Notes under the pieces: model-generated | Databases searched by the model: none | Told to the model about the DNA's origin: nothing | What the model saw: the letters and a program-made list of their open reading frames with translations, nothing else | In this document: positions 4,279 through 43,300 of the stretch, piece after piece | Position numbering within the stretch: the first letter of the stretch is position 1 | Layout: each line of letters opens with the position of its first letter | Source: a virus | Length of the DNA: 64,000 nt | Virus record (IMG/VR): IMGVR_UViG_3300042564_003823 | Coordinates: 1-64,000 of that record | Strand: one strand, 5' to 3' | Translations under genes and position numbers: made by a program

Positions 4279-5150
4279 TATGGATTAACATACTCATACC
4301 ATTTTATAGGTAAAATACCTGTTCCGACTCTTTGTGCGTTCTGAAAATTATTATTATATGTATAAACTTTATATTCGTTTGTATTATAATCTAACACATA
4401 TTTGTAATAAAAATATAGTGGTTTGTCTAAGTTGAACATATTTTGTCCAATAAAGGTTGATTGTGGTCTATTCATCATTCTAACAAATTGTCCTGTTTTT
4501 GCATTAAAAAATTTAGCACTAACATAAAATTCAGTTATGTTCAAATAATTTTTATCTTTTAACCAATAAACATAAAACCCTTCTTTATCTGCACCCGTAT
4601 AATCTAATACAAATTTTGGTTTTTTTACTTGAACATTTGTTTGATTAAGTGGTGGGCCTATTGTACCAGGTTCTTTTAATCCTTGTTGTGTTGGTAAAAT
4701 AATACTTAATAATATTGTTTGATTTTCATTTTGTGGTGAATCATAAAAATCTAATTTAAAAAAACTTCCTTTGAATGAATTTGCAAAATAATAAATTTCA
4801 CTATCAGTAAATGTTGCATTTTCATAATCTGTTGCCCAATTTGTTGTTGTTGATGCGGTCACACCTGTTAAATAATCAAAAAAATAAAACTCGTAATTAA
4901 CATTCGTCCCTTCTAAATTTATGTTTGTAGGTCCAAATGGTGTTTGAATCGTAAAATTAAACTGCCAATCCGAGTGTGCAAACTTTGTTATTTCAAAATC
5001 AGATATTGGGTTTAATATTTCAGAAATTACTTCGTTTTCAAAACTAGCAACGCCATCTTCTCTTCCAAGCATATCAAAATTGATTTCCAAAGGAATATCT
5101 AAATATTGATCCTGATCCGTGATTGTTTTTCTAAAATATTTATTATTCAC
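4278..5150 (-). CDS. Virion structural protein (unknown family)
   Basis: A 290-residue protein starting MNNKYFRKTITDQDQYLDIP. It is rich in Tyr, Phe and Asn and has no membrane segment or signal peptide. It resembles no family that I can name. It overlaps the upstream 585-residue gene by eight bases and the downstream PKD gene by one, so all three are almost certainly co-translated. Gene order places it among peripheral baseplate components. Confidence 0.55.
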   Translation of the reverse strand: MNNKYFRKTITDQDQYLDIPLEINFDMLGREDGVASFENEVISEILNPISDFEITKFAHSDWQFNFTIQTPFGPTNINLEGTNVNYEFYFFDYLTGVTASTTTNWATDYENATFTDSEIYYFANSFKGSFFKLDFYDSPQNENQTILLSIILPTQQGLKEPGTIGPPLNQTNVQVKKPKFVLDYTGADKEGFYVYWLKDKNYLNITEFYVSAKFFNAKTGQFVRMMNRPQSTFIGQNMFNLDKPLYFYYKYVLDYNTNEYKVYTYNNNFQNAQRVGTGILPIKWYEYVNP

Positions 5151-6900
5151 AAGTGTCTGTTGTTGGAAGATTTATTTCATTATAAATAAAAGATGTGTTT
5201 CTTTTAGTTGGAAAGTGTATGAAATTTATTGTTTTAAACGGGTAATGTGCTCCGTTCATGAATGGTATATCTAACCCAAAACCTTCGCTATCAACAAACC
5301 CATAGTTATAAATGTCTCTCCAATAAAATTGTCCGTTATTATCAGAATAAAAAGAATGAAACGGAACATTATCTATTTCTTCTAAAGATGCGTTTTCAAT
5401 ATATTCACTAAAAGTTCTTATAGGTATTGAATAATGCGGTTTATAAAGATATCCTGGGGGGTATAAGACGGTGTTCGTATAATTTGAAACAGCAACTGCA
5501 ATTGCCTGACCAAAATTAGCAGGTATTGGTTGTGATATATTAAAAACATCAGGATTGTATGAGTACTTATGGTATATTGGTGATAACACGTATTCTTTTT
5601 GTTCAATATCATTGTATTCGCAAAAATCACCTTTAATAACATCATCAACGTTCAAAAAATTATTATAATAAAAAGTGAATCCGGCCATTTGATACGAACT
5701 TACTGTTATGTTTTCTTTGTTATCTGTTGATGTATGATTCCACCAGGGGTCTGTTGTATTTTGTAAAAAGTTAAATTCCCACCCTATGTCAATTGATCTT
5801 TGTAAAGATTGTGGTGGTTTATTAAACCATCCCATGTAACCTCTATTCACTATTGTAACAAAAAGTTCGGTAATGGGTTTTCCGTTATTATCTAATAAAT
5901 TAAATGTGTCAATATCTTTATTAACTGTAAACCCATAACTTTGCGTGCCGTCTTTAACTGAAATTCTTTGTTGGTTATTTGGTGTCAATGCGGAATACTC
6001 CAATTTTCTTTTAATAGGAAATGCGTTATTTTCAAAGGCCATTTTTGTTAAAAATGTCTCATTATTTGATGTTAAAATTTTATGTAACCTAACATAGTAT
6101 CTAGAAGTCGTATCTCCAGTATTATTTAAATCTACTATTCTTTTAAAATTCCCATAAGTTCCGTCAATAATATCGTTATCAGGAAACTTTAAATTATATA
6201 TCGCAAAAACCCTAAGTTCAGACCTATATGTGTCATCACCTAAACTATAAACTTGAAATGTGTTTTTCCCGTCTATTGTTATATTTAATTTGACATACTG
6301 ACCTACAGTTAAATTATGGTTTGTTGCACAATAAAAATAAACTAAATTTTTTCCATTTTGAGTTTTGTTTTTTATAATAAAAGGTATTCCGTCCGCAACA
6401 TTAAAATTAGCATTTGTTACATTAAAATCCTCATCAACAAAAGACATTGTTTGTGCGGTTGTACTACTAAATGCGTATGATACATATGTCATCCAATTAT
6501 ATGTTGTTGCACTTTTTGGCACAAAACTAACATGTCCGGGTATTGCACTATCTCTTATGATTGAAAATTCATCGTATTGTGGATATCCTTTCCATACACC
6601 AGTATTAATAGAATTAACGGGATCTAAATAATAAAGATAGTCTTTAAATGGTGTATAATCTGTTTTTCCTGAAATTACATTATCAAAAATATTTACAATT
6701 TTACCATTCAATCTAAAAATACTTGAATTTTGTCTTTCACTATCAAATATTTCTCTAAGGTTTATTAAAGTGGCTCGGTCGCCTTGTACCATTTCACGTC
6801 TTTCACCAATAAGGGGTAATTGTATTTGCACAGGTTGATTAGACGAACCAGCAAAACGCTTGTTACCTAAAACTATTCTTATCTCATCTTGTTTTCTCAT
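5143..6900 (-). CDS. Large virion structural protein (unknown family)
   Basis: A 585-residue protein starting MRKQDEIRIVLGNKRFAGSS. It is beta-rich with many aromatic residues. No catalytic motif, coiled coil or membrane segment was seen. It follows the 1746-residue gene with a single base between them and overlaps the next gene by eight bases. The run 12142 to 1 therefore looks like one long operon of virion genes. Its place after gp25 and gp6 suggests a baseplate peripheral component, perhaps a fibre connector. The function is not known. Confidence 0.55.
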   Translation of the reverse strand: MRKQDEIRIVLGNKRFAGSSNQPVQIQLPLIGERREMVQGDRATLINLREIFDSERQNSSIFRLNGKIVNIFDNVISGKTDYTPFKDYLYYLDPVNSINTGVWKGYPQYDEFSIIRDSAIPGHVSFVPKSATTYNWMTYVSYAFSSTTAQTMSFVDEDFNVTNANFNVADGIPFIIKNKTQNGKNLVYFYCATNHNLTVGQYVKLNITIDGKNTFQVYSLGDDTYRSELRVFAIYNLKFPDNDIIDGTYGNFKRIVDLNNTGDTTSRYYVRLHKILTSNNETFLTKMAFENNAFPIKRKLEYSALTPNNQQRISVKDGTQSYGFTVNKDIDTFNLLDNNGKPITELFVTIVNRGYMGWFNKPPQSLQRSIDIGWEFNFLQNTTDPWWNHTSTDNKENITVSSYQMAGFTFYYNNFLNVDDVIKGDFCEYNDIEQKEYVLSPIYHKYSYNPDVFNISQPIPANFGQAIAVAVSNYTNTVLYPPGYLYKPHYSIPIRTFSEYIENASLEEIDNVPFHSFYSDNNGQFYWRDIYNYGFVDSEGFGLDIPFMNGAHYPFKTINFIHFPTKRNTSFIYNEINLPTTDTCE

Positions 6901-6901
6901 T

Positions 6902-9900
6902 CTATTCAGTACCTATAATATACTTAGTTATAAATCTGTTTAATGCGGTTTTTCCTTTACCAAGACCAAAATAAAAATGATACGGGGCACCTACAACAAA
7001 ATTTGCTTTATTTTGATTACTTGGGTTTGTCCATACATAATCTCTTTCACCTAAATTATTATAGTTGAAAATATATCCAGTACTTGGTCCGTTTGTCGCT
7101 TTAAAGTAATCTGCACCTGTAAATGACATGTTTTGATACGGCGCAGAATACATTGGTGGTAATGTTCCAATATTTGGAAAATCCGTCAACCAATCATTTT
7201 TTTCGGTTCCAAATATGGTACTTGTATTGATTGTTGCTTGTCCTTGGTCGTTTCTTATCTCCCAATTATACATAGGGACTACTTGTGTTTTAGGGTACCC
7301 TACAAGTTGTTGGACATTCCCAAAAGTGGCGAATCCTGGAGTTAATGCGACTCTATTTTGTGTAATTGCTGAGAACAACACACCATAAAATATCTCATTA
7401 GGTGTTCCTAAAACTATATCATCATTTCCGTAGAATTGTTCATTAAATGGTATGATCCCATATTCTGAATTAATACTAAACATTTGAGCCACATCGCCAT
7501 CAATTCTATCATCTGATCTTGAAAAAAGTTGGTTAATTGATGCATCACCTCTACTAAGAGCCAACTCCCAAAAACCTGTATTAACTAATCTTGACACTAT
7601 AAACAATAAAAGTAGATCACTTGTATCATTAAATGATGTTGATTGGACGGTCTCAACTAAATAATTTTCTAATTGAGGATTTAAACATATTTCTTTTGCG
7701 AATTGATCTCTTGGTCCTAAATCCATCATAGTGGTAGGGAAATGTAAATTCCTTTCGTTAGATCCTTTACCATATATATTTTTAATATTAGTCCCATATA
7801 ATTGTGGTCTTTGTCCTATAAAATACCCATTAACATTTGTTCCGTTTTGTTGTAAAACATATGGTGTTGATCTATAATAGAAAGTGTTTGTTTGATCATC
7901 TAAATAAATAGGACCTTGGTTTTGTCTGCCAGGAACTAAATCAAAATCTTTTGATCCACAAAACACATATTTTTTTGGATTATTTTGAGCGTCAAATATT
8001 GTTTTCTTTTTAAACGCATAAGAATAAAGAGTACCATTAACCCAGTTGTTTTGAAACACCTGACTGATAACTCCTCTACATGCACCAAATAACAACCTGA
8101 ATCTTGATTTCCATTCAAAGAAATTATTGTAGTCTCTTAAAATAGCTCCTTCTGTTAAATATGGTTCTTGAATTAACTTATAACAACCCTTAGTTATTCT
8201 TGTCGGGTTTTCGTTTTCAGGACAAGGTGATTTTACACCAAAATTATCACCTGAACCACTATAACACGGTAGTGGAACCATACCTTCACAACTAAAAGTT
8301 GCTAGTACTGATGTTGTTCCTGAAATTGCGTCTTCACTATAATCGTCCGAATTACCGGTATAATCCGTTTGATTACCACCTAATTGTGTAACTTCACCAT
8401 TATCTAAAATCCTATATATTGTAAAATTATCATTTTGGTATAAAGCGTATCTATTATTATAATTTGTTTGGACATTATCGGATGTTGGTAACCGGTCAGA
8501 TCTAATGATCATTTTTGCGTTGTTCACAGTTTGGTCAAATGCTATATTTACGGATAGATTTGGGCTTGTTTGTTGGTACGATGGGGCAAATAATCTAGGT
8601 CCTCTAAAATGTTTAATGTTGTTCCAATCGGTATTTGATCCGGCACAGTTACCGTTCATAAAGGTTTCTACAGTTCCTTCATTACCAAGATCCAACCTTT
8701 TATGTAACTGATTATTTGGTATGTCTGTAAACATAAAAGACCCTCCTTCCACATTTCCTTGTCGTGTAATAGCCTCTGTATTACTACTAGTCATGTACCT
8801 AAGAAGATAACTATTATTTGGGTTTCCGACTGACGGAACATCACTTAATCCAGTATCATACCACATATTATATGGGGCATTATTGTTTAATCCTCTTAAA
8901 AATATAGGGGTTAATCCGGCAGAACTAAGGTTATACGGTAGATTATCATTACAGTCATATGTGTCAGTATTAGATACCGAATACCCACCATATAAGGTAC
9001 TTTTTCTATCTAACGACGAATAATATTGTATTGTGTTTGTGGTAAACGCAGAATATAATATGGGGTCAGGCCTAAAATTAAAAGGTTTGTGGTATAATTT
9101 AGAAAATTGATATCCAACCTCGTGTGATTCGGGAGTCTTTTTATTTATCCACCAATCAGCACTTAAATTTCCACTATTCTCTTGTATCGGTATATTTAAA
9201 TGATAATTACCTCTCACTACGTGTGTGTTAGGTGATCTCCCAAATAATTTTGATATGTCGTATTTAATAACTTGTTTTTCGGTAAATGGATCAACACCCC
9301 TAACTAAAAATATAACATTTAAATTTTTATATTCGTTTCCATTCACCTGTAATGGATTAATAAAAGATTCAACCGCAGGTTCAGTACCACAACTTTTTCT
9401 ATACGATATCCTTTGTCTCGCATTTAAAAAGAAAAATCTCATATAGTTTTGATTGGTTGTCGTTGTAAATGTTTCTGATTGTTGGATGGTCATACCAGTA
9501 ATTACCTGAAAATACTCCATACCTCCTTTGTATTTATATTCTCTTTCGGTTGTAGATCCGGTTATAGTTAAATTTGCAGTTCCACTGGTCGCATCTGGTT
9601 TTATATAATTTTGAACGATTGTGGTTGTAAGTAAGGATGTTCCTGTAATTGAATTGCTTCCGAATTGGTTTTCCGTAACTCCACTTACATTAAAACCGTT
9701 AATATTTTTATCATTCACATTATCTGGATTATTAAAACTAATTAATGAACCTGCAGGTAAATTATCCACCGTATTAGAATCGCAAAGTAAAACAATAACA
9801 TTATCGGTAAATGGGTCCGATGGGTACCCATCATTATCAACCGTTGTGGTTATTACATTTGAAAAATATGATGGATTATCAAAATACCTTTGTCTAATAT

Positions 9901-12142
9901 TGGCTAAATTTAACCTGTGTGAGTAGGTGATATCCTTTTGAAGTATGATTTGTCCTGATCCCCAAAAACATCTATTTATTGGTGTACCTTGTGTTAACAA
10001 ATTTGGGTATCCAGCGATCGCATATTTAATTCCATAACCATTTAATGTATATTTTTGTGATTCGGCGTTTGGTCCTCCAGCGTAAGTATCCGTTCTCATT
10101 TCACAAAAAGCATCACTATTATTACAATCATCATCAGCACAATTAGATTCGTTTGGAGTATTACCCCAAAAGGTATTAGAATTAACGTCACATAAAAATG
10201 ATGAATTTTTTCTTGTGTAAATTTGACTTTCCCTAACAGTAATAACTGATAGAGTACCGCTTGTTCCGTCACCAACAATCTGTTCCAAGTTCAATGATTG
10301 TGGTTCACACGAACAGGCCTCACAATCGGGATATGTCATAGACGGTAAACTAATACCGTTAAGACTTGATGTGTTAACAATTAATGGACTAACCTTTATG
10401 ATAAAAAATGCGGTGGCTAAACCAAAAATAATGGCCGTGACTGCAGATAAAATCATTAAACCAATGGCTGGAAAAGCACCAATAGCCGCACCAACAAAAA
10501 ATACAGTTAAATAACCTAATAGAATTGGTATACCAATAGCTAACGCCCATTTTGCAATAGGCCAAAACTTTGCAATTAAATGCATCAAAGGTATTAAAAC
10601 AAAAGCGAATGGAGAAAAAATGGTTATAACTAAATTAAATAAGAAAAATATTAAATCAAAATTCCTTACACCATCATTAACCGGCATTCTATTTGTTGTT
10701 GTTGAGCACTCCCTATTTGTAATTTCTTTTATACCTAAATGTCTTGATCTGTTGTATCCCCACTTCCACCTATCGATAAAACTTGAAACGGTGTAAACTC
10801 TATTATAATTAAATTCAAAAAACTTGTCTTCACAATTTATTGCATCTGCAATCATTTTTTGACCTATGGTTGTTCCTGTATCTCCGTAATCTGTCCAATC
10901 TAAACTAAATGCGTATGATTGTCTTTGTAATGTATCATCTGTAGGTCCGTTCGCATCAATATCTGAATCCCAACCATATTCCCTTATATTTGGCACCAAA
11001 TAATCCGCTCTTTGTGTTGATGCGGCAAATCCTTCGTTTTGATATTGAATTTTAAATCTATATTTCGCCTTAGTTGGTATACCTACTTTAGGGTCGTTTG
11101 AAATTATTTGTTCTCCAAATTCGTTTGTTGTGACGTAATCCAAATTCATTGGCATTTCAATTAACCATGTCCCGTCACTATCTATTAAGTTTCCACCTTC
11201 AGGTAGTTTATGCTGTTCTAATATTGGGTATCCTCCCGCGTCGGTATATATTGTTTGTCTGATAGCTAAAATGGTACCAGGTGCCGTAACCAAATCACAA
11301 AGATTTCCTGTATCAAATTTTGGTTTACAATTAGTTTGTAACGCATCTTCATCTGTTGTTGAAAACATTGATCCCATGAATATTGCTTGAGGTTCAATTT
11401 GAATTCCTAAATCCCTCAAATCAAAATCCACTCTTGTGATACCAATATTACATAACTCATCATCACCCCAAAACGAAGTTACTTCAACTTCTTTCTTTTC
11501 ATTAACTATTTGTGGTAAAGAATCTAAATCAGGTGATGATTTAAAAGATGACCCCTCAAATTGTCCTTCACTACCCATACCCATTCTTATAAGATCGGCA
11601 GGTCTTAAAGAAAAACAACCAATATTTGATACGTCCATATCCATCACAACTATTTGTTGTCCTAATGGAACTCCGACAATCATAAAGTCACCACTATCGT
11701 TAGTTCTAACTGTGTATTTATAATATTTTTCATAAACCTCTAATACTGTACTGTTACTTACAACATCCTCTCTATCAGGAAAAGTCCCTGTTGGGTTGTG
11801 TCCTCCATATTCTTTAACATACGGTAAAAGGTTATATCTATAACCATCTTCATTTTTGTCAGTTAAAGTTTTATATGGGTATAATGTTGAGATGACGGGA
11901 TCTTCAGAGTCTTCAACTGAAAGTGGTACAAATACCGAAACTGTTACATTTGGTACCCCATACCCGCCATTTGCAATAACTCTTCCAGCAACTACACCAT
12001 AATCGGCACAAAATCTTGTATAAACGTCAGATTGTTTTAATTTTAATGATAATATTTCAATAAAATCAAAATCTTGATCTACTTTAATTCTTATGTTTTT
12101 ATCTATACCTGGTGTTGTTCTTAATCTATAATTTTTAGACAT
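6902..12142 (-). CDS. Giant virion protein with carboxypeptidase-regulatory-like domain and membrane segments
   Basis: A 1746-residue protein, larger than any T4 baseplate protein. Residues about 45-185 contain VAGRVIANGG and later DSGDFMIVGVPLGQQ, the pattern of a carboxypeptidase-regulatory-like (prealbumin-like) Ig fold. Residues about 497-586 are almost entirely hydrophobic and would form three or four membrane helices, which is unusual for a tail protein. The long C-terminal part is Asn/Gly/Tyr-rich and looks like exposed structure. It lies directly after gp6, with a one-mismatch promoter-like element (TATTTATC) 13 bases before the ATG. A baseplate component that inserts into or contacts the host membrane is an inference; it could also be membrane-anchored during assembly. 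Confidence 0.65.
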   Translation of the reverse strand: MSKNYRLRTTPGIDKNIRIKVDQDFDFIEILSLKLKQSDVYTRFCADYGVVAGRVIANGGYGVPNVTVSVFVPLSVEDSEDPVISTLYPYKTLTDKNEDGYRYNLLPYVKEYGGHNPTGTFPDREDVVSNSTVLEVYEKYYKYTVRTNDSGDFMIVGVPLGQQIVVMDMDVSNIGCFSLRPADLIRMGMGSEGQFEGSSFKSSPDLDSLPQIVNEKKEVEVTSFWGDDELCNIGITRVDFDLRDLGIQIEPQAIFMGSMFSTTDEDALQTNCKPKFDTGNLCDLVTAPGTILAIRQTIYTDAGGYPILEQHKLPEGGNLIDSDGTWLIEMPMNLDYVTTNEFGEQIISNDPKVGIPTKAKYRFKIQYQNEGFAASTQRADYLVPNIREYGWDSDIDANGPTDDTLQRQSYAFSLDWTDYGDTGTTIGQKMIADAINCEDKFFEFNYNRVYTVSSFIDRWKWGYNRSRHLGIKEITNRECSTTTNRMPVNDGVRNFDLIFFLFNLVITIFSPFAFVLIPLMHLIAKFWPIAKWALAIGIPILLGYLTVFFVGAAIGAFPAIGLMILSAVTAIIFGLATAFFIIKVSPLIVNTSSLNGISLPSMTYPDCEACSCEPQSLNLEQIVGDGTSGTLSVITVRESQIYTRKNSSFLCDVNSNTFWGNTPNESNCADDDCNNSDAFCEMRTDTYAGGPNAESQKYTLNGYGIKYAIAGYPNLLTQGTPINRCFWGSGQIILQKDITYSHRLNLANIRQRYFDNPSYFSNVITTTVDNDGYPSDPFTDNVIVLLCDSNTVDNLPAGSLISFNNPDNVNDKNINGFNVSGVTENQFGSNSITGTSLLTTTIVQNYIKPDATSGTANLTITGSTTEREYKYKGGMEYFQVITGMTIQQSETFTTTTNQNYMRFFFLNARQRISYRKSCGTEPAVESFINPLQVNGNEYKNLNVIFLVRGVDPFTEKQVIKYDISKLFGRSPNTHVVRGNYHLNIPIQENSGNLSADWWINKKTPESHEVGYQFSKLYHKPFNFRPDPILYSAFTTNTIQYYSSLDRKSTLYGGYSVSNTDTYDCNDNLPYNLSSAGLTPIFLRGLNNNAPYNMWYDTGLSDVPSVGNPNNSYLLRYMTSSNTEAITRQGNVEGGSFMFTDIPNNQLHKRLDLGNEGTVETFMNGNCAGSNTDWNNIKHFRGPRLFAPSYQQTSPNLSVNIAFDQTVNNAKMIIRSDRLPTSDNVQTNYNNRYALYQNDNFTIYRILDNGEVTQLGGNQTDYTGNSDDYSEDAISGTTSVLATFSCEGMVPLPCYSGSGDNFGVKSPCPENENPTRITKGCYKLIQEPYLTEGAILRDYNNFFEWKSRFRLLFGACRGVISQVFQNNWVNGTLYSYAFKKKTIFDAQNNPKKYVFCGSKDFDLVPGRQNQGPIYLDDQTNTFYYRSTPYVLQQNGTNVNGYFIGQRPQLYGTNIKNIYGKGSNERNLHFPTTMMDLGPRDQFAKEICLNPQLENYLVETVQSTSFNDTSDLLLLFIVSRLVNTGFWELALSRGDASINQLFSRSDDRIDGDVAQMFSINSEYGIIPFNEQFYGNDDIVLGTPNEIFYGVLFSAITQNRVALTPGFATFGNVQQLVGYPKTQVVPMYNWEIRNDQGQATINTSTIFGTEKNDWLTDFPNIGTLPPMYSAPYQNMSFTGADYFKATNGPSTGYIFNYNNLGERDYVWTNPSNQNKANFVVGAPYHFYFGLGKGKTALNRFITKYIIGTE

Positions 12143-12214: not shown

Positions 12215-14053
12215 TTATGAGAAGTCTACGGTTGAAAGGTTTTTTACTCTAACCTTAATATCCTTTCTTGGGAATCTAATTTGATAGATTTGGTCAGGTT
12301 CAGCAAATATAGTATCATCAACTAATTCAATTTGTTTTGTTGTTGTATCAACATATCTTTGTGATGTTTCTGAAGAAGAATATTGACCCCCAACTTTGTT
12401 ATAAATTCTGATTTCTGCTAACGTATTTACTCCTCCAATATCTTGGACTAATCTTCTTAAATCAGACACATTTAGATTTTGACCAAGTTCTCTATTTACT
12501 GGGTTCATATAATTACTAACTTGATTAATTAATTGTGTTATCACCTCAGATTGGGATCCGGGATTATCTAAAACAACAAGAAATTCAAGTTCAAGATCTA
12601 TAACTTTTGCAACCTCTATTGATATATAATCGTTTATCATCCTGTATTTTGACAGGTAGGTTGCTAAATTTGTTTTTAGGTTATTTGATACCGTTTGCGT
12701 TAAAACTCCAGTATTATCATACGATAATATTTTAACAGATATTTTATTATCAATTTCTGTTATCGAAACTTTTGCTGGTGCTCCGTATTTACCAGGCATA
12801 GTATCTATCAAGGATTTATAATCATTAATTGTCACCGCTCTTCTTTGTGATGCAAAATTAAACGTAACCATGTTTCTAACTTCTTCAATTGATGGTTGGT
12901 TTGCTCCACCAATCGCAGCGGTTACATTATTAACCGTTAATGATTGTGTCACACTTCTATTTATACTATCAGATGGACCGTTCACATATAAATCCGATGT
13001 TAATACTTGGTTAATTGCCGCGACTCCTATGTTAGAAACAACACCACCACCTACTCTATATTGAACAAATAGTGTCGTATTTGGTTTTACGGTCAAACCT
13101 AAACCAATATTATTTTGGTAATTTTGTAATTTCAATGGGATTCCAGTTCTAGTGAACTGCTGTAGTTGTTCATTCGGTGTTGTTGTACCAGCACCAAATT
13201 GAATTTTTAAGAACCCTTCTGGTGTATATTCTGTAATAAACCTATTATCTGTTTTTATATATTTACCGACCTTTACCCCCGTAGAATCCACAGGTTTTGT
13301 TGTGTCTTCAATAAATACGGTGTCTTCAACTAAGGCATCAACTTCATACCATCTACCTTCTGCTGAATTAAATTCAGAATATGTTGGCGTGTTTTGATAA
13401 GAGGTACCATCTTTTTGTATGATTGATGTTACCCCTAATACATTTTTTTCAGGTAAGAAAAAATTATAGAATGGTACAACATTGTTTTGATTTATAACTA
13501 TTTTGAATATTTTAGTTGATCCGTTAACTAAAACCTCCCTTTTTGTGATTACATAATTTACTATGTTATTGTTTTGATCAAAAGTAGGTACTTTAGTCCT
13601 GTTTACAAACCCCTCAATGTTAAAGTCAGAAGAAAAATCAATGTCATAAAGATTTTCAAAAATAGTACCAGCACCTCCAAATTGAGATCCAGCCCTCAAA
13701 ACACCAAGATAAGATGTATTTTCAGAGTCTCCCGCGGCAGGAACAGTTATAGAAATATCAGCAATAGTCACTGAAGGTCTTAAACCTGGTATTTTTAAAC
13801 CATAAGTTCTTGCAATATTAAAAACAGATGATCTTTGTTGTGCATATTGTAAAACAGTTTCTTGTATACTTCTATCTATATGAAAATGTAGGTTGTCAGT
13901 AACCGCAGCATTTAAATCCATTAATACTGAGAATACCGAAGCATCGTTAAAGTTTTGGATTAGTTCAGGGTAATACTGTTGTGTATAATTAATTAACTCT
14001 TGTCTTATACCTTCAAAGTCTCTCTCTGTATATGATATTTTTTTATTAGCCAT
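12215..14053 (-). CDS. 6: Baseplate wedge protein gp6-like (baseplate J family)
   Basis: A 612-residue protein, close to T4 gp6 (660). The N-terminus carries the typical DFEGIRQELINYTQQYYPE and NDASVFSVLMDLNA strings, followed by an LHFHIDRSIQETVLQ helix, which mark gp6/P2 gpJ-type wedge proteins. The middle holds the conserved RRAVTINDYKSLI motif (residues near 410-425). The C-terminal half has the INQVSNYMNPVNRELGQNL helix and the VNTLAEIRIY strand seen in this family. It lies five bases after gp25, its usual neighbour in T4-like and P2-like phages. In the virion it would form the baseplate ring with the gpI/gp7-like protein. Confidence 0.9.
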   Translation of the reverse strand: MANKKISYTERDFEGIRQELINYTQQYYPELIQNFNDASVFSVLMDLNAAVTDNLHFHIDRSIQETVLQYAQQRSSVFNIARTYGLKIPGLRPSVTIADISITVPAAGDSENTSYLGVLRAGSQFGGAGTIFENLYDIDFSSDFNIEGFVNRTKVPTFDQNNNIVNYVITKREVLVNGSTKIFKIVINQNNVVPFYNFFLPEKNVLGVTSIIQKDGTSYQNTPTYSEFNSAEGRWYEVDALVEDTVFIEDTTKPVDSTGVKVGKYIKTDNRFITEYTPEGFLKIQFGAGTTTPNEQLQQFTRTGIPLKLQNYQNNIGLGLTVKPNTTLFVQYRVGGGVVSNIGVAAINQVLTSDLYVNGPSDSINRSVTQSLTVNNVTAAIGGANQPSIEEVRNMVTFNFASQRRAVTINDYKSLIDTMPGKYGAPAKVSITEIDNKISVKILSYDNTGVLTQTVSNNLKTNLATYLSKYRMINDYISIEVAKVIDLELEFLVVLDNPGSQSEVITQLINQVSNYMNPVNRELGQNLNVSDLRRLVQDIGGVNTLAEIRIYNKVGGQYSSSETSQRYVDTTTKQIELVDDTIFAEPDQIYQIRFPRKDIKVRVKNLSTVDFS

Positions 14054-14058
14054 ATATA

Positions 14059-14520
14059 TTAAATATTTATAATTACAAATTCTCTAGATCCAAAAGCACT
14101 TGAGTTGTCAATATATTCTATTTTAACCTTTGCTGTATATTCTTCAGTGTTTGCTCCAGGTACTCGGTATATCGGAATGTCAAATTGTTCTGAGGAAAGT
14201 TCCCCTAAAGATGGTTCTGAATCTATATATGGTTCTATTGATATGTTTTGTATTGTTAAATTTGGTATATACTTATTAACTGAATCTTCTATTTCTCCTC
14301 TGATACTATCAAACGTTTCACCATCAAGTGGTTCAAATATAAAATCATATAATCTAGTACCAAAATCCGGTAAAAAATATCTACTACCTTTTCTTGTTAA
14401 TAATAGATGAATTAAATTACTTCTTATTTCTTCATCTGTTTCTTCTGAAAGCGCTAAGAACTTACCCTCAATACTTTGTCTAAAAGGAAATATTATACCA
14501 TATGTTACCCCATCTGCCAT
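14059..14520 (-). CDS. 25: Baseplate wedge protein gp25-like (GPW/gp25 family)
   Basis: A 153-residue protein, slightly longer than T4 gp25 (132). It has the family hallmarks in order: IIFPFRQS, a helix EIRSNLIHLLLTRKGSRYFLP, then FGTRLYDFIFEPLD, and the SIRGEIEDSVNKYIPNLT helix. These proteins resemble lysozyme only in distant fold and act as structural parts of the inner baseplate near the tube-sheath junction. It is followed by the gp6-like gene after five bases. Upstream are a strong terminator and an exact TATTTATA element, so this gene probably starts the baseplate transcript. Confidence 0.92.
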   Translation of the reverse strand: MADGVTYGIIFPFRQSIEGKFLALSEETDEEIRSNLIHLLLTRKGSRYFLPDFGTRLYDFIFEPLDGETFDSIRGEIEDSVNKYIPNLTIQNISIEPYIDSEPSLGELSSEQFDIPIYRVPGANTEEYTAKVKIEYIDNSSAFGSREFVIINI

Positions 14521-14884: not shown

Positions 14885-16753
14885 TTATACAATTTCACAT
14901 GCTCCACCGGCACACGCAGCTTCTCCTCGTAGGTCAGTGTTATCTTGTAACTCAATAACTTTTGTAAGATCAACATCTGTTAATGATTTAACTAATCTTT
15001 CAAAGTCTTCTTTTGTACAATCTTCAAAAGGTGCTTGTGTGTAAGTTCCTCCGTTGTATGGTAATACTGAAAGTCCGTTATAAAAGTCTCTATTATTCCA
15101 CATCCAATCACCAACTAATTCCCACTCATCTTCTTTAATTGAAACTGTTGCCGATACGTTGTGAGTATTTTGTCCGTTTCTATGACCAGGTTTAATCCAT
15201 TCTTGAGATACTTTTTTAACTCTTTCTAACATCTGAAATACTGACTCATGTCTAACAATTGAACCTTCAGGTGCTCTTTGTGGAATAGTAATTACCGCAG
15301 TATCGTGTGGTCTAAAGTATTCATCTTCAATCAACTCAGGGTGATTAATTGCAAGGTATGAATAAATTGATTCGTTTTTTCCAACACGGATTCTTCTTAG
15401 GTAATAATCATTATGCCAAGCGTGAATACCTGATGATGTACCTAACACTAAAGATGATGTTCCTGATGGTTTAACCGTTGTTGTTCTTGCAGATTTGTTA
15501 ATTCCTATAAGTGTTGCAACTCTTTCGTTTTCTTCTTTAACCGATTTAGATGCCTTTTTCATATCATAACCCAATACAACGCCTGAACCAATACCTGTCA
15601 TACCAACACCAATAAGAGCATCTTTTTCAGTTGTTCTTTTCCAAATGTCTCTTAGGTAATGAAAGTCTGTGTATCCCGCCTGTAATGTACCAATAAATGC
15701 CGCTGCTCTAACTCTTTTTTCAAAATCTTCTTGTGATTCGATATCTGAAGCATTTACCTCACATAAGTTACAGAATTGGAATGGTCTTAGTGCGATTTCA
15801 CAACATGGATTAGTTCCCCAATCTTTATCATTTGATAAGTAGATTCCAGGTTCACCTGCTCCTGATAACTCAATACGTTTCCAAAGACCCATAAAGAATT
15901 CTTTTGTTATTTTGTGACGAAGAAGTACTGCCGAGTTATTTGCTCTACCTCTTTGCGCATTTTGTTCCCACCAACTTCCTGACTTACAAGATATCATTTC
16001 TTCATCATCCGCTGAGAATAATGAGATAAGTGCTGCTCTTCTTATACCACCAGCCAATACCGCATCTGCAATATGACAAACAATGTCGTGAGTTTCAATT
16101 GGTGATAATCTTTCCCCATCTTTTTTGTTATCCAACACTTTTGTTATGTGGTGGATACAATCTTTTAGTGGTTGAGGTCCTGGAGCCTTTCCACCTGATG
16201 TTACAAGGTTCGCCCCTTTTTGTCTAATATCTGAAAAATCAAATACAGGTGTTGACGATTTGTAACCTAAATACGATTCCATCAATACTTTAATGGCGTC
16301 TGCCCATCCTTCAATAGAGTCACCAATTAAGTAACGTCTTGTTCTTTCAGGGTTTGGTTTTTTTATTTCTGGTAGTTTTTCAACATGGTGTTTTTGAACT
16401 GAGTATCCAACTCCTGTTCCACCTAAAAGTAAAAACATTGTTTCAGAAAATGCATCCACATGGTCAATTGGCATATATGCACAATTGTAGACTCTGTTTG
16501 GTGAAATCTCAATTGGTTTGCCACCGAATTGTAATGATCTCATTGATGGTAATACTTTCTTGTTGTATACCATTTTATATACCTCCTCTATCTCATCTTT
16601 GATGTGAGGGTACTTACGTTGGTGCATCTCTTTGTTACGTGTTACCAACTCTTCCCAAGTCTCTCTCCTGTTCAATTCAGGTTGAAACTTAGCGTATTTC
16701 ATAAAGACAGTAATGTCACTTAATATTTTTTGCGAAATATCCATTTTATTCAA
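14885..16753 (-). CDS. nrdJ: Adenosylcobalamin-dependent (class II) ribonucleotide reductase
   Basis: A 622-residue protein of the monomeric class II type, which makes deoxyribonucleotides using coenzyme B12. The N-terminus has LNRRETWEELVTRN and then VLPSMRSLQFGG. The first active-site Cys is in VYNCAYMP (residue 91). It is followed by LLGGTGVGYSVQ, typical of this class. The loop cysteine lies in NPCCEIAL (near residue 317), where the family usually has NPCGEI. The C-terminus ends in a CAGGAC pair, the shuttle cysteines that thioredoxin or glutaredoxin reduces. It is shorter than the Lactobacillus enzyme (739). It sits between the helicase and the DUF5522 gene in the replication operon. Activity in the host depends on cobalamin supply. 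Confidence 0.93.
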   Translation of the reverse strand: MNKMDISQKILSDITVFMKYAKFQPELNRRETWEELVTRNKEMHQRKYPHIKDEIEEVYKMVYNKKVLPSMRSLQFGGKPIEISPNRVYNCAYMPIDHVDAFSETMFLLLGGTGVGYSVQKHHVEKLPEIKKPNPERTRRYLIGDSIEGWADAIKVLMESYLGYKSSTPVFDFSDIRQKGANLVTSGGKAPGPQPLKDCIHHITKVLDNKKDGERLSPIETHDIVCHIADAVLAGGIRRAALISLFSADDEEMISCKSGSWWEQNAQRGRANNSAVLLRHKITKEFFMGLWKRIELSGAGEPGIYLSNDKDWGTNPCCEIALRPFQFCNLCEVNASDIESQEDFEKRVRAAAFIGTLQAGYTDFHYLRDIWKRTTEKDALIGVGMTGIGSGVVLGYDMKKASKSVKEENERVATLIGINKSARTTTVKPSGTSSLVLGTSSGIHAWHNDYYLRRIRVGKNESIYSYLAINHPELIEDEYFRPHDTAVITIPQRAPEGSIVRHESVFQMLERVKKVSQEWIKPGHRNGQNTHNVSATVSIKEDEWELVGDWMWNNRDFYNGLSVLPYNGGTYTQAPFEDCTKEDFERLVKSLTDVDLTKVIELQDNTDLRGEAACAGGACEIV

Positions 16754-35719: not shown

Positions 35720-37669
35720 TTACATCATTTGACCTTTTTCAACACTAATATTACTCTTGTTTTGAATAATATTTATAACTCTACTTTTTAACTCTTCAGT
35801 AAAGGATCTATCTTTCATTAAAGCATCGGATAACGTTCCGTTTGAATTAACGTTTATATTAATATTAATATCTCCAGATGCAACAACTTTTTGTACCACT
35901 TCGGAAGACTGTGGTTTTTGATTGGGTATTGACTCTGCCATCATTTTTATAGCATTAGATTCAATACCTGTTTCATTACTGGGTTCTGATGACATCATTT
36001 CTTTTATTTTGAAATTACTATTGTATGAATTTTTTAATATATCCATATTTTTTAAAAGATCGGGAGCAAACATCGCTTCGTCATCCTTAATAAAATTAAA
36101 CATCTGACCTTTACCCATACTTAATACTTTTTTTCCTGTTGAGAAAGTAGCATCTTCTTCTTCCTTCATCTCATCGCCACTTGTTGTTCCATTTGTCATA
36201 TCTTCATCTGTGTATGTTTCTCCTCCTTTTCCTTGACCTACTTTTGTCGCATCCTTATCAATTTGGTTTTCAAGATTTTTCCAATCTTTATCCGCCTTTT
36301 TTTCTTGATTTGAGATTCTTTGTTGTGCTTTATCGTTACTTTTACCTATAATATCAATACCTTTTTCTAAATTATTTGCAATTGTATTTCTTTGGTCTTC
36401 GGTTAAGTTTCTTAATAATATATCTCTTATTGCTCTTGCATCGGCATTTAAACTTTCTTGCAGACCCAAACCTTTTGATGCAATATCTTTTTCTGATAAT
36501 TCAGCAGTTTTTTGGTATTTTTCTAAAGCCGCTTGAATTTCGTTGGGGCTGTCTTTCATCGCAGCTTCCAAATCATCAATTGGTGCAGATAAACCAGGTA
36601 TATCTAAAGTCATTTTACCACCTTTAAATTCTGTAAGTGACGCTAATAAATCTTTTTGTTCTTGAGGCATACCATCGCCAAATGAAGTATCAGAAAGTGC
36701 ATCCATAACTTCTTTAGCCTTTTTGGCTTCTTTACCCATTTTAACATATTCTTCATATGTAACACCAAGAGCGGTAGCTTGTTCTCTCAATCTTTGTCTT
36801 GATAGGGGGTCAATTTCAATTTTTCCTGTTTCTTTATTTACATTATACGCATTTGCAGATAAATCTATAAGTTGGTTTTGTAGCTCTTCAACATCATTCA
36901 TTCCCATATTCATTAATTTGAATGGGCTACCTAAATCACCAATTGCTCCACCTAACATTTGTAAATTAGACGCAACCTCTATTGCCTTTTCAGGATTTAA
37001 AAGATCGTCAGCAAGTTTCATCGCACCTATTTTATCAATATCTGTTCTTAATATTTTTGCTTGTGTTGACATTTTAGCCAAACCTTCTATTCCATTTTTA
37101 AAACCATACGCATCTAATTTTGAAATATAACCTTGCACCTCATTTAATACGGATTTACTGTCAGCACCTGAAACCCTTGCAATTTTACTAATTTTTTGCA
37201 TGGATTCAATACTTTTAATTTGTGAACCTTCAAACCTCATATACTCAGCAGTCATTTTACCTAATTCTTTAGATTGGATACCTGTGGATCTTTCCATTGC
37301 AAATAACGCTTCTCCAAATTTTTCACCACTACTTGTGGCTTGATTTGACATAAAAACTACTTTATTCATCCCTTCGGCAAATCCAGCAACCGCTTCTGTT
37401 ATATCTTTAAATGTACCCCCTAACTTAACTACACCTTCATATGATTCAAATAATTGTTCTCTAAATTTGTTAGATTCTAAAACCATCCCACTATTCATAG
37501 TCCTTGATAAAGACCTGGCAGAATCTTCCATTGACGTTATTGATTCTTGTAGATAATTGGGACTACCTAATTTTTCAATAGCGGCATCTATTTTAGCGGT
37601 AATATCATTTAATTTTGTTCCAGTTTGGTCAAACTCATTTAAAGTACCGTCAGAAGTAAATAACATCAT
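35720..37669 (-). CDS. 29: Tail tape measure protein
   Basis: A 649-residue, strongly helical protein, near T4 gp29 (590). Long amphipathic helices with few Pro or Cys run through most of its length (for example MNKVVFMSNQATSSGEKFGE and MNSGMVLESNKFREQL). There is an Ala/Gly/Met-rich part near residues 220-260. The C-terminal third is charged, with DKAQQRISNQEKKADKDWK. The position just after the gp26-like and gp51-like genes and near the tail tube gene is the classic place of the tape measure. Its length would predict a tail of T4-like size. No peptidase or lysozyme insert was seen. An exact promoter-like octamer lies 11 bases before the start. Confidence 0.8.
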   Translation of the reverse strand: MMLFTSDGTLNEFDQTGTKLNDITAKIDAAIEKLGSPNYLQESITSMEDSARSLSRTMNSGMVLESNKFREQLFESYEGVVKLGGTFKDITEAVAGFAEGMNKVVFMSNQATSSGEKFGEALFAMERSTGIQSKELGKMTAEYMRFEGSQIKSIESMQKISKIARVSGADSKSVLNEVQGYISKLDAYGFKNGIEGLAKMSTQAKILRTDIDKIGAMKLADDLLNPEKAIEVASNLQMLGGAIGDLGSPFKLMNMGMNDVEELQNQLIDLSANAYNVNKETGKIEIDPLSRQRLREQATALGVTYEEYVKMGKEAKKAKEVMDALSDTSFGDGMPQEQKDLLASLTEFKGGKMTLDIPGLSAPIDDLEAAMKDSPNEIQAALEKYQKTAELSEKDIASKGLGLQESLNADARAIRDILLRNLTEDQRNTIANNLEKGIDIIGKSNDKAQQRISNQEKKADKDWKNLENQIDKDATKVGQGKGGETYTDEDMTNGTTSGDEMKEEEDATFSTGKKVLSMGKGQMFNFIKDDEAMFAPDLLKNMDILKNSYNSNFKIKEMMSSEPSNETGIESNAIKMMAESIPNQKPQSSEVVQKVVASGDINININVNSNGTLSDALMKDRSFTEELKSRVINIIQNKSNISVEKGQMM

Positions 37670-37696: not shown

Positions 37697-37876
37697 TTAT
37701 TTTTTCTCAAATTCCTTCATTAGTTTGTCTACAAAATATTTTCTTTGGAATGTTGGCATAGTAATTAAATCACCATAGGAAAACCCCGCATGTTTAATTA
37801 AAAAATAAATTTCGTCTAAAAGGTATTTTTGGTAATTAGAAGAAAGGGCGAAAAAATTCAACCCCAAAAGAGACAT
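37697..37876 (-). CDS. Small gp51-like tail assembly protein overlapping the gp26-like gene
   Basis: A 59-residue protein in the +1 frame relative to the upstream 250-residue gene, overlapping its last 41 bases. It starts MSLLGLNFFALSSNYQKYLL, and its end reads GFSYGDLITMPTFQRKYFVD, then KLMKEFEKK. The pattern of a short helix, Phe-x-Tyr/Trp, then Met-Pro with an Arg four residues on is what I recall for gp51-like hub-assembly or tail-chaperone extensions of T4-like phages. No Shine-Dalgarno sequence precedes the ATG. It could be translated by re-initiation at this ATG or as a frameshift extension of the upstream protein at the T6 run at 37851-37856. Either way it sits directly before the tape measure gene, where tail chaperones belong. 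Confidence 0.6.
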   Translation of the reverse strand: MSLLGLNFFALSSNYQKYLLDEIYFLIKHAGFSYGDLITMPTFQRKYFVDKLMKEFEKK

Positions 37877-38588
37877 TAACTGTCACTTCTTCTCCAGACG
37901 GGGCTATTACTTTTCTGTTTAGGTCTAATTTTGGTTCACATTCATTAATGAATTTTCTTAGACTTTTGGAATCAACTATTGGCATGTTAGTTATAAAAGT
38001 TGCAATTTTTCCCTTGTCTCTTGTTCCTTCTAGTTCTACAATTTGTGTTTCTAGTCTTTTAGTGATAATAGGTGTTATCATACCTTTTGGGTAGCTATTC
38101 ATTATAGAATCAAGCATTTTATCATCACCTATAGTTAATAGCTTAACTTTAATATTTTTTTGTGATTTAGGTAATGTAAATGAAAACAATCCTTCAGAAT
38201 CCGGTTGGTGTTTCATTGGTAAATAATTTACCTCATCAATTAAAAGGGTAACGTCAAAATATTTATCAGTTCTAGGATCTAAAACACTGATATTGTATTC
38301 AGGACCGAAAGAAGTGTTTCTTAAAAATAAAAGAATTGCTTGTGCATCAACATTTAATAATTGTTCTATATTAAACCCAGGCTCATAAACCTTACTTCTT
38401 AATAATGAATTTACTATGCCATCTTTTCCATAATTTTGGGACATCAATAAATTTTCATCACTTGCGGTAAGATACCCCACTTTTAGTGATTCTTTTTTTG
38501 ATGCGTAAAAGATTCCTTTTGACGGTAATTTTACCACATCATGTGGTAGATTAAAATTCATTTGCCCATATTCTGCTGCTTCATCCAT
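37836..38588 (-). CDS. 26: gp26-like baseplate hub/tail assembly protein
   Basis: A 250-residue protein, somewhat longer than T4 gp26 (208). It has the family pattern: LPSKGIFYASKKESLKVGYL, then TASDENLLMSQNYGKDGIVN, then LLNVDAQAILLFLRNTSFG, and it ends GVEFFRPFF. These proteins act in hub and tail-tube assembly around the tape measure. It lies after a terminator and before the tape measure gene. The last 41 bases overlap a second frame coding a gp51-like protein. The stretch GAA TTT TTT CGC close to its end could allow a +1 or -2 slip. The upstream octamer has one mismatch (TATTTACA). Confidence 0.8.
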   Translation of the reverse strand: MDEAAEYGQMNFNLPHDVVKLPSKGIFYASKKESLKVGYLTASDENLLMSQNYGKDGIVNSLLRSKVYEPGFNIEQLLNVDAQAILLFLRNTSFGPEYNISVLDPRTDKYFDVTLLIDEVNYLPMKHQPDSEGLFSFTLPKSQKNIKVKLLTIGDDKMLDSIMNSYPKGMITPIITKRLETQIVELEGTRDKGKIATFITNMPIVDSKSLRKFINECEPKLDLNRKVIAPSGEEVTVNVSFGVEFFRPFF

Positions 38589-38682: not shown

Positions 38683-39171
38683 TTAGTAAACTAATATACA
38701 TCTGTCAGGTTGTAATGTCATGTCAACCATAGCCAAATCATCACCACCATAACCAACATCACCAAAAGATGCTTTTGTAATTAGACACCCTTGAAGAATC
38801 CATTTTTCAACTGCAACTCCTGTTGGGTCTAACATTTCTAAATCAATGTCTTTTTTGTAACCCGCAGCATAACCCATACGACCTGTTACAGATTCAGCAT
38901 GTAAACGAACCCATTCCATTACCGCTTGTGCGGCTGAAGGACCAATAGGGTCTCTTAACTTAACCGTAATTTCGTCCCAGTTAAACTGACCTGAAACATA
39001 TGTTTGTGTGTTAAGGAATTTTATTTCTTTTTTTCCAATAGTTATTGACGGTCTAGATGCACTTTCCACGTACCAAGAGTTGATACCCAAAGATGAAGGA
39101 AACGTCAATATAAACCTGTTCTTTCTTTTTGGTTCATACTGAAAAGGCATTTTCATTAGTAAATCAGCCAT
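38683..39171 (-). CDS. 19: Tail tube protein, gp19-like
   Basis: A 162-residue protein, one residue from T4 gp19 (163). Family features in order are the N-terminal PFQYEPKRKNRFILTFPS, WYVESASRPSI (the first core strands), WDEITVKLRDPIGPSAAQAV with the helix AVMEWVRLHAES, and the C-terminal WILQGCLITKASFGDVGYGG with MVDMTLQPDRCIL. It would stack as hexamers to form the inner tube. An exact promoter-like octamer lies 31 bases before the ATG, and a strong terminator follows, so it is probably expressed as its own short and abundant transcript. Confidence 0.92.
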   Translation of the reverse strand: MADLLMKMPFQYEPKRKNRFILTFPSSLGINSWYVESASRPSITIGKKEIKFLNTQTYVSGQFNWDEITVKLRDPIGPSAAQAVMEWVRLHAESVTGRMGYAAGYKKDIDLEMLDPTGVAVEKWILQGCLITKASFGDVGYGGDDLAMVDMTLQPDRCILVY

Positions 39172-40357: not shown

Positions 40358-43300
40358 TTATACATCATCAAAAGATGCTCCTGTTGGTGTGATAACAAAC
40401 TCGATGTCAATGTATTCTAACGCTCTTGTTGGTTTCAAGAAGATTTTACCTGTAAGGGTGTTTGAATCTAAATCTTCAGGTGTGTTAGAAACCGTAACTC
40501 TAAAGTCAATTAGACCTCTATCTCTTCTGATTGAATCTAAAATCGGGTTAACTGAATCTAAGAATTGTTGTCTTACTTTATCATCATTTTGTTCAAACAA
40601 TAATCTAACCGCCACAGCTGAAATTAACTTACGAGCTTGTAGTAATAATCTTCTTACGTTGATTCTATCAAGTGCAGACTCTCTAACTTGTAATGTTTTG
40701 TTACCCCAAATTACTGTACCTACATCTGAGAAAGTGGCGATCGGGTTAATTCTACCTTTGTAAAGAGTATCCCTATCTTCTTGAGTTAATTTTTTACGAG
40801 CTCTAATTGCGTTTACCAAACCTCTTGTATAACCTGCTGACGCAAACCAAGGGAACGCAATGTTATCGGTTAATGCCAAATTTTTAGTTACTTCTGCGGT
40901 TACAGGGATATAGATTTGAGTGTTATTAACAGTATCTCTTGTTAATACCCATGGATAGTATGTTGCGGTATAGTTAGAATCAATTCCTGTACTTTCTAAA
41001 TTATCAACAACCTCTTGAGGGTAAATTAAACCTTCTTCAATATCTTGGTAAGAAGGTAAGAATAGGTTAAAGTCTGGTGTTGTACAAATATAAATTGAAT
41101 CCGCTCTATCGGTTTCAACCATATCAATAGCATCCTCAACTAAATTTGAGTTATTAACATAATCAATACCAGGTGTTGTGAATACATTTATGTTTGTTGA
41201 TTCAGGATTAGCAAAAGTATCTTGACCCCATTTGTAAGCGTAGTAATCAGTATTTGCCCAAGTCTCTTGATTTGGTCCTGAGATTTGTTTAAATGCTCCC
41301 CATCCTGATGCCGTTGGGAAACTTACTGAAGACGCTGCTCCGTATTTAAATCCAGCCTGACCTAAAGCGAATGTATCACCATTAGTTCTATATTCTCTAT
41401 AGATATCCCATCCGTCAAATCCACCGTAAGCTAATACTGTAAATTTACGAGTATTTAATCTGAAATATGGATTATCCGAATCTAAAGGTTCACTATTAAA
41501 CGACCCAGCACCAACTTCAAACGCTTGTGTGTATGCTGATGTTAATACATTATACATTGTAACAACAGTCGCCCCACTATCCATGTGGAAACCTTTTGTT
41601 TTATAACCCCAACCAAGACCTACTGTATCGGTAGCTAAGTTTGCTGGAATTTGTTTTCCTTTGTATTCGAAGAAATCGTAATCGATTCCGGTAATATTTG
41701 ATATACCTAAATATGCCTTTCTTGGATTTTCGCCGTTAGAAATAACAGGATTGTCTCCACCTGAAGACGACCCAAAAGGAGGGTTATATATTACTTCACC
41801 TGCCTGTAAGTATTTAGTTTTGTAGATAACAAATGGTGGTGTTGAGTTTGCATATTCTCTAGAGACATAACCTTCAAAACCACAAGCGACTGCATCTGTC
41901 GGTGCTTCGTCACTCATCTCTAACATTACGTATTTAGACTTAACTTCATACTCACCATTAGATGTACCAATTTTATTAGCAACATAGTTATTTTGACTAG
42001 GATCCATTGAACAATTTGTAAAACTTTCAACTACCCTTACATTTTGGTCGTTATCATAAAAATCTCTAATGAATACATCAAAAGTTCTATTTGAGAATGA
42101 AATATTACCAATAGACATTTTAACTAATCTATTTGCTGCGTTACCATCAGAAATAAGTTTGAATTTAAATAATTTAAAAACTTTACTACCTCTTAATTCT
42201 GAAACAATATATGGAGTCTCAGGTGTTTGGTATTGTTCTAAATAAAATGCGATTGAGTCACTATAATCTTGTATATTTGAGTCATCAGTAACACCTGGAA
42301 GTGATATTAATGAATTATATATACCTCTAATTTTCCCGTTTCTATAACCATTAAGTAATAAACTTGAGTAAACTTCCTCAACAAATAAAGGAACTTCATT
42401 TCTATCTTTACCAAAATTACTTCTTCCAAAAACTTTGGAGATGTATTCTGAGTCTGTTGAAGATAAAGAAGTTTCAAAACTAAAGTTTTGAGAATCATTT
42501 GTTATACCTGAAATAACAAAAGTTTCAAATGGATTTAGTGACACTCCCGAATAAGATCCTGTTGTGATGATATTAACGCCAGTAGTTGCACTTACTTCAA
42601 AATTAGGACCATGTTGTGTACTAGAATAATTTGTAATACCTCTTGATCTTAATGTTGCAACAACTAAATCATCATAATCACTATATGGTGTTCCTGAATA
42701 AGTAGTCCCATAAATAGCGACAGATCCTGAATACCCTAAAGCCACGTTTGAAATTGTGTTTAATGATGCCCCAAATCCATATCCATTGTAACTACCAACA
42801 CTTTGTGATTTTGTATAATCAAACAATGCGTAGTACCAAGGATCGTTTAAATAAGAGCTTAAATCATTATTTGCAAAAATAACATTGTCAACACCGAACG
42901 TTTCAGTAACTGCGGTAGTGTTAAATGGTGATCCTGTAACTGCTGCATATGTTGTAGAATCAACTGAACCCCAAAAATAAGATGTTTTTCCTGATAACGG
43001 TGATGCTGTTGCAAATAAACCAACTTGTGCTGAAATATAATTTTGAAAATCTAAATATAGACTTGAACTATCACCATTTGCTGTAGTATATTGGTTATAA
43101 AAATCTGCAGATATTAATGATGGTAACGAAGGTAGTATTGTTATATTAGTACTTGAACCTGTAGTACCTGTAAAATATACATAACCAATAGGTGTTGGAG
43201 ACGACCCTGTTACACCAATAGTTGTACTATCTAAATTACCTATTGTAACAATAGACCAAGATGGCCCTGCGTCATAACCTGATAAACCTAATATTCTTGT

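Follow-up and report, generated by a model that had tools for sequence, protein, structure and literature searches.

A protein of 1746 residues encoded in the baseplate cluster of a virus fragment carries in its middle a long hydrophobic module (residues 497–590). The module is present in every family member that covers the site and is predicted to form three helices. A possible role is that of a stored element which, on firing of the tail, passes into a host membrane. The window analyzed is the whole stretch of 64,000 nucleotides that begins with the first base of IMG/VR record IMGVR_UViG_3300042564_003823, a virus fragment of 96,188 bases; its GC content is 31%. The features discussed are collected in Table 1.

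The initial annotation had pointed to a long apolar block in mid-protein, and hydropathy analysis bore this out, with residues 497–590 forming one block. Kyte–Doolittle averages over 19 residues (KD19) showed maxima of 2.38 (residue 499), 2.16 (532), 2.33 (547) and 2.49 (564). The sole charged residues or histidines within the block are H521, K525, K531 and K583. A single 19-residue value of 2.49 is within chance, as the maxima of 2000 shuffled sequences averaged 1.76 (SD 0.27) with a top value of 2.98. The 90-residue mean of 1.92 from residue 495 lies beyond chance, the same number of shuffles giving a mean of 0.45 and a top value of 1.07. Among the 35 minus-strand ORFs scanned, the module is the strongest apolar stretch, with the runner-up at 1.65.

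Structure prediction, which the annotation had proposed, was carried out with AlphaFold2 on 86 aligned sequences. The module is predicted to form helices at residues 497–525, 527–555 and 560–590, each of 29–31 residues, with pLDDT values of 74–92 per ten residues. Of the three or four helices expected beforehand, three were thus recovered and a fourth was not. Both flanks of the module (455–495 and 600–660) were modeled with low confidence. In length and Kyte–Doolittle hydrophobicity the predicted helices reach the membrane-spanning range.

The ORF was assigned to the baseplate cluster because of its neighbors gp6 and gp25, which places a long membrane-grade block in a protein of that cluster, as had been claimed. 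Sheath, tube and hub genes on the same strand identify the cluster as that of a T4-like contractile tail. The protein gave no match in Pfam, PHROGs, PDB sequences or a tblastn search of 50,697 phage records, and the family profiles A1 and A3 gave none against PDB sequences. Two distant members, L054 and L073 (L numbers denote family loci), also served as tblastn queries; the former gave one 19% match to an unannotated record and the latter none. No published account of the family was found in the open-access papers searched, a set that omits most subscription articles.

Table 1. Positions in the window of the protein, its regions and the tail genes around it
Feature	Position	Strand	Basis or remark
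Hydrophobic-module baseplate-cluster protein, 1746 aa	6902..12142	-	Stop codon 6902-6904; ORF list; family in IMG/VR
Putative transthyretin/carboxypeptidase-regulatory-like beta-sandwich with insertion, residues 45-248	11399..12010	-	AlphaFold2; VIA-align; CarboxypepD_reg
Second, mostly beta region, conserved, residues 250-451	10790..11395	-	AlphaFold2 pLDDT mostly 57-93 per ten-residue block; family alignment
Hydrophobic module, residues 497-590	10373..10654	-	Kyte-Doolittle, shuffles, AlphaFold2
First helix, residues 497-530	10553..10654	-	Apolar save conserved polar/small stripe N503, T507, T510, H521, A524 (then P528, K/R531)
CxxCxC motif behind module, residues 607-612	10307..10324	-	Cys607 in 83/86, Cys610 and Cys612 in 74/86 rows
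C-terminal region, variable among members, residues 613-1746	6905..10306	-	AlphaFold2 mean pLDDT 73.5
Counterpart of 1000-aa protein of L009/L016	3-2258	-	Cut off by start of record
585-aa protein, adjoins downstream, place conserved	5143..6900	-	84/89 family loci with complete gene
gp6-like baseplate wedge protein, adjoins upstream	12215..14053	-	phrog_219 E 1.8e-20; weak Baseplate_J
gp25-like baseplate wedge protein	14059..14520	-	Pfam GPW_gp25 E 3.6e-10; phrog_261 E 2.3e-18
Candidate tape measure, 649 aa, helical	35720-37669		Designated from its location and helical appearance; PHROGs without match
Hub protein	37836-38588	-	Farther upstream
Tail tube	38683-39171	-	Farther upstream
Tail sheath	40358-43579	-	Farther upstream

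The module across the protein family

Searching IMG/VR with the protein alone gave 69 loci, and a profile search gave at least 591 related candidate stretches, of which the best 80 were kept. Complete members range from 1212 to 2220 residues, and their first ~450 residues can be aligned across the whole family. The module was found in all 132 members covering the site, within a few dozen residues after the conserved N-terminal beta region. An automatic scan of the 230 residues beyond an anchor motif scored 131 of these at 1.6 or above. The sole miss, L071, was a failure of the anchor; its segment (2.12 at residue 468) lies just ahead of the fallback anchor. L139 scored 1.85 in the anchor scan but reaches 2.24 at residue 504.

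Despite its universal presence, the module is strongly divergent in sequence. It is shortest, with a few dozen residues, in rumen and short-form members and longest, at ~97–110, in the groups of the window's protein and of L041. Members with a short module, such as L054 and L048 with ~41 apolar residues, have few other apolar helices to cover the surface of helix 1. Elsewhere on the same strand of the related loci, 463 ORFs of 400 residues or more were scanned, a set with redundancy between loci, and none reached 2.0.

Gene order is well conserved. A gp6 gene lies directly upstream in all 149 family loci and gp25 was seen in 140 of them. The 585-residue protein comes next downstream in all but five (L053, L132, L152, L071 and L072) of the 89 loci with a complete gene. 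Four loci come from genome bins, three labeled Bacteroidales or Paludibacteraceae, the latter falling within Bacteroidota, and one labeled Mycoplasmatota. The hosts of the family are likely Bacteroidota, given the bin labels, the SprB repeats of some members (see below) and the fact that the closest cultured relatives, as judged by gp6, include a phage of Flavobacterium.

These nearest cultured relatives share 26–29% identity in gp6. In Flavobacterium phage immuto, Microcystis phage Mel-JY01 and the uncultured record LR756508, the proteins following gp6 have no segment of 1.6 or above (three of three records). Kinship of the family with these large proteins was rejected, the hhalign probability being at most 0.6%. 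The 1265-residue post-gp6 protein of immuto is homologous to a 1000-residue protein encoded farther downstream here (L009, L016; hhalign 95.3%, E 2e-8). A [KR]xKGT-type motif in the latter recalls T4 gp7 by eye; hhalign gave no confirmation.

Membrane crossing by contractile phages is usually credited to tape measures. The candidate tape measure in the window peaks at a KD19 of 0.82, in agreement with the earlier remark that the tape measure has no comparably strong segment, and in related records the tape measures peak between 0.66 and 1.76. Tape measures are long, helical and coded between the tube and hub genes; the 1746-residue protein was itself considered for this role and rejected. It is mostly beta outside the module and sits in the gp25–gp6 block; the helical 649-residue ORF is the better candidate. 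Tape-measure searches gave a match in 11 of 16 and 4 of 20 records, the misses being mostly short fragments. L054 also matched a tape-measure PHROG weakly (E 0.02), which was attributed to composition and disregarded.

A trade-off between tape measure and module was likewise rejected. The raw rank correlation of tape-measure hydrophobicity with module length, chosen after the data were seen (rho = -0.74, n = 14 pairs, p = 0.002), was lost once phylogenetic contrasts were applied (r = -0.14, p = 0.64); the 45-residue measure gave rho = -0.26 (p = 0.37). L022, with a truncated copy of the protein, was dropped from this set, and the fragments L165 and L168 were not counted as separate pairs. For the pairs L072 and L073, the tape-measure match may belong to a different contig within the bin.

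Regions flanking the module and the first helix

The N-terminal domain was compared with known folds. VIA-align of the model reached at most Z 7.4 (79 residues, rmsd 2.3), under the caution line of Z 8. CarboxypepD_reg matched 15 of 17 family members (best E 2e-5), with 13.1 bits for the window's member, 19.4 for L054 and 19.7 for L071 against a gathering score of 32.3 bits. As these scores fall under the usual lines, the beta-sandwich assignment of the modeled domain is suggestive only. Foldseek with the N-terminal model found no informative solved relative apart from beta-sandwich domains. Foldseek also matched this model to A0A8S5LA66, an uncharacterized protein of Myoviridae sp. ctPuP5, with 35% identity over 551 columns (E 3.6e-44); this deposited relative has no assigned function.

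The C-terminal region gave no PDB chain at Z ≥2 among 999 compared and no BFVD match at E 1e-3. In some other members this region carries recognizable repeats. SprB repeats, familiar from gliding adhesins of Flavobacterium and Bacteroidota, were found in the C-termini of all six short-form members scanned (L054, L047, L053, L056, L057 and L067; Pfam E 1.7e-12 to 1.1e-6); the scan left out the similar L048 because of its size. None were seen in the rumen members L071, L072 and L073. In the longer members L020 and L091, beta-propeller repeats (DUF5122) are inserted in the C-terminal half (E 9e-20 and 4e-31). Domains of the SprB or propeller type usually face outside. An ORF starting at 5671 in L156 (LR756502.1, a 642-kb uncultured phage) encodes 1670 residues with a signal-like N-terminus and 29% identity to the C-terminus of L054 that bears the SprB repeats (E 3e-4). 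This protein is possibly a phage-encoded secreted adhesin.

Almost all columns of helix 1 in the 86-row alignment are apolar, and N503, H521, P528 and K/R531 are conserved. Its periodicity was evaluated on the 48 ungapped rows among 61 non-redundant ones, in which N503 is kept in 36, His521 in 45 and Ala524 in 38. The hydrophobicity moment was above that of permuted columns (p = 0.0002 at 100 degrees), and the polar-residue moment gave p = 0.003 at 100 degrees and 0.02 at 102.9 degrees by the same permutation. The helix is thus apolar but for a single stripe of polar or small residues, the pattern expected of helices that pack together.

Cysteines are conserved on both sides of the module. Cys479, ahead of it, is kept in 83 of 86 rows, and eight cysteines around the beta region and the module are each present in 74–85 of the 86. 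The whole protein has 26 cysteines, compared with 0–11 in each of twelve neighboring tail-cluster proteins counted. A disulfide lock is described for phage Milano in passages of PMC10811340. The conserved cysteines here may form a lock of that kind or metal sites. Cys479 and Cys607–612 might make up a putative metal site closing the module, in a part of the AlphaFold2 model that is of low confidence.

Possible roles of the module

In two precedents, tail-tip proteins hold apolar helices in store and are proposed to insert them when triggered. Passages of PMC11101478 describe helices H1 and H2 of lambda gpI, predicted to be transmembrane, as leaving their closed position, and propose that they insert into the outer membrane. 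Like the 1746-residue protein, gpI as described there is a tail-tip protein other than the tape measure with predicted transmembrane helices; those of gpI are kept in the virion and, it is proposed, enter the membrane once the receptor is bound. As a difference, gpI is a siphophage protein with two helices located in the tube lumen, whereas the protein here has three and belongs to a contractile-type cluster. T5 pb2 has 46 apolar residues that are proposed, in passages of PMC10038345, to make two transmembrane helices forming a channel. As described there, pb2 is the tape measure, whereas here a baseplate-cluster protein bears the segment and the candidate tape measure does not. Coding in a tail-tip or baseplate cluster is common to these proteins and the one described here, which has gp25 and gp6 upstream. 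According to parts of PMC8894136, baseplate or fiber extensions (Cis12, Cis13) of the thylakoid contractile injection system (CIS) contact or enter the membrane. Unlike the family here, that system is host-encoded and anchored in its own cell, with a single C-terminal helix in a fiber-like trimer. The family is large and unannotated in the databases searched; the stored-helix device is of a kind already known, of which the place and size of the module here would be a variant.

On the analogies with gpI and pb2, we tentatively favor storage of the module in the baseplate followed by insertion into a host membrane on firing, while rating this reading as somewhat short of probable. We infer that the protein is a peripheral component of the baseplate in the virion, with its N-terminal beta domains docked beside gp6 and its variable C-terminal part pointing outward to the cell. 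The helical module between them would be kept protected in the unfired particle, probably in a multi-copy bundle packed via the polar stripe of helix 1. Firing of the tail would free it for insertion, the membrane chosen presumably being one of the host's. Once inserted, the module could anchor the baseplate, or open or line a path for the tube or DNA.

The universal presence of the module despite its divergent sequence, its three membrane-length helices and the first helix, apolar all round except for the stripe, are consistent with insertion, as is the scarcity in short-module members of further helices to cover that surface. So are the fixed place in the tail cluster, the outward-type C-terminal domains and the candidate tape measure without a membrane-grade segment. 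Nevertheless, three helices would put the N- and C-terminal parts on opposite sides of the membrane, which is awkward for a large C-terminal part facing outward. This problem would be avoided if one helix lies flat or if shorter members use two. The loss of the inverse relation between tape measure and module under phylogenetic contrasts also counts against insertion.

The initial annotation had stated that T4 baseplate proteins have no such segment, which does not hold for single helices. T4 gp7 reaches a KD19 of 2.07 at residue 886 (Wimley–White octanol -10.7 at 882) and gp29 2.20 at residue 237; the next among the other T4 tail proteins measured is gp11 with 1.66. The segment is kept in all six gp7 proteins examined (1.82–2.07), and a RefSeq note describes the C-terminus of T4 gp7 as an integral membrane domain by prediction. 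The two still differ in degree: over 45 residues T4 gp7 attains a mean of at most 0.73, as against a median of 2.21 in the family; the unusual point is length. As with the 1746-residue protein, the gp7 gene directly follows gp6 and encodes a membrane-grade segment; unlike that protein, gp7 has one short helix, near its C-terminus. Homology was not detected by hhalign of family profiles A2 and A3 against the six gp7 proteins (probability 0.2% and 0.1%), a shallow six-row profile that could miss remote kinship. T4 gp7 was absent among the Foldseek matches listed for the N-terminal model, which is no argument against kinship. Wedge proteins with membrane-grade helices are therefore already known. 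T4 gp7 has solved structures in baseplates, and the apolar helices of T4 wedge proteins give no checkable sign of membrane insertion. A wedge protein in the same gene position can thus carry such a helix without a sign of insertion, which counts against the insertion model.

The T4 case bears on a less probable but serious reading, in which the module is a purely structural helix bundle inside the baseplate, its apolar surface covered by other chains, and never meets a membrane. The conserved apolar helix of gp7, a component of solved baseplates, fits this, as does the three-helix bundle reported in passages of PMC6300606 for the type VI secretion (T6SS) complex TssF2–TssG and for T4 gp6(2)–gp7. 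The Asn/His stripe suits helix–helix packing in any setting. Blocks of 40–97 apolar residues nevertheless far exceed the T4 helix by the 45-residue means given above, nearly every face of helix 1 is apolar, and the lack of detectable sequence homology to gp7 also argues against this reading, which we consider doubtful.

Membrane insertion remains the preferred reading, and a further step can be proposed from it, although we regard it as improbable. In these widespread T4-like phages, a baseplate protein may have taken over the membrane penetration that the tape measure performs in other phages. On contraction, module copies surrounding the spike would enter the host membrane and together make up an oligomeric collar or pore, with the conserved Asn/Thr/His stripe as its lining.

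It is rather unlikely that the protein sits in the inner membrane of the infected cell as an anchor on which baseplates assemble. By the positive-inside rule, the acidic residues before helix 1 and K/R531 after it would leave ~490 N-terminal residues outside the cytoplasm, and the N-terminus has no signal-type sequence by eye. The released virion would also need to leave the membrane again. Anchoring does have parallels: in passages of PMC8894136, thylakoid CIS particles are freed by deleting the Cis13 transmembrane domain, and passages of PMC12237407 report that the membrane protein CisA is required for firing of the Streptomyces CIS. A role outside the virion, as an assembly factor or exported adhesin-like protein coded in the tail cluster, is very unlikely; some C-termini do bear repeats known from secreted Bacteroidota adhesins, but no N-terminal signal was seen and almost all loci have the gene placed between gp6 and a conserved block of the tail cluster.

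For the step in which a contractile phage, once fired, crosses the host membrane or keeps hold of it, the family supplies a defined fragment (residues ~480–620) together with N503, H521 and the stripe. Should the module turn out to be buried, the case would show that predictors of membrane segments go astray on baseplate proteins, which may already apply to T4 gp7.

The surrounding genes show other peculiarities. A ribonucleotide reductase gene (14885-16753; phrog_367 E 2e-133) adjoins the baseplate block; some family members have this gene and in others it was not seen. The tail sheath has 1073 residues, about twice the usual size, and its match to the sheath profile is confined to the C-terminal end (residues 856–1070).
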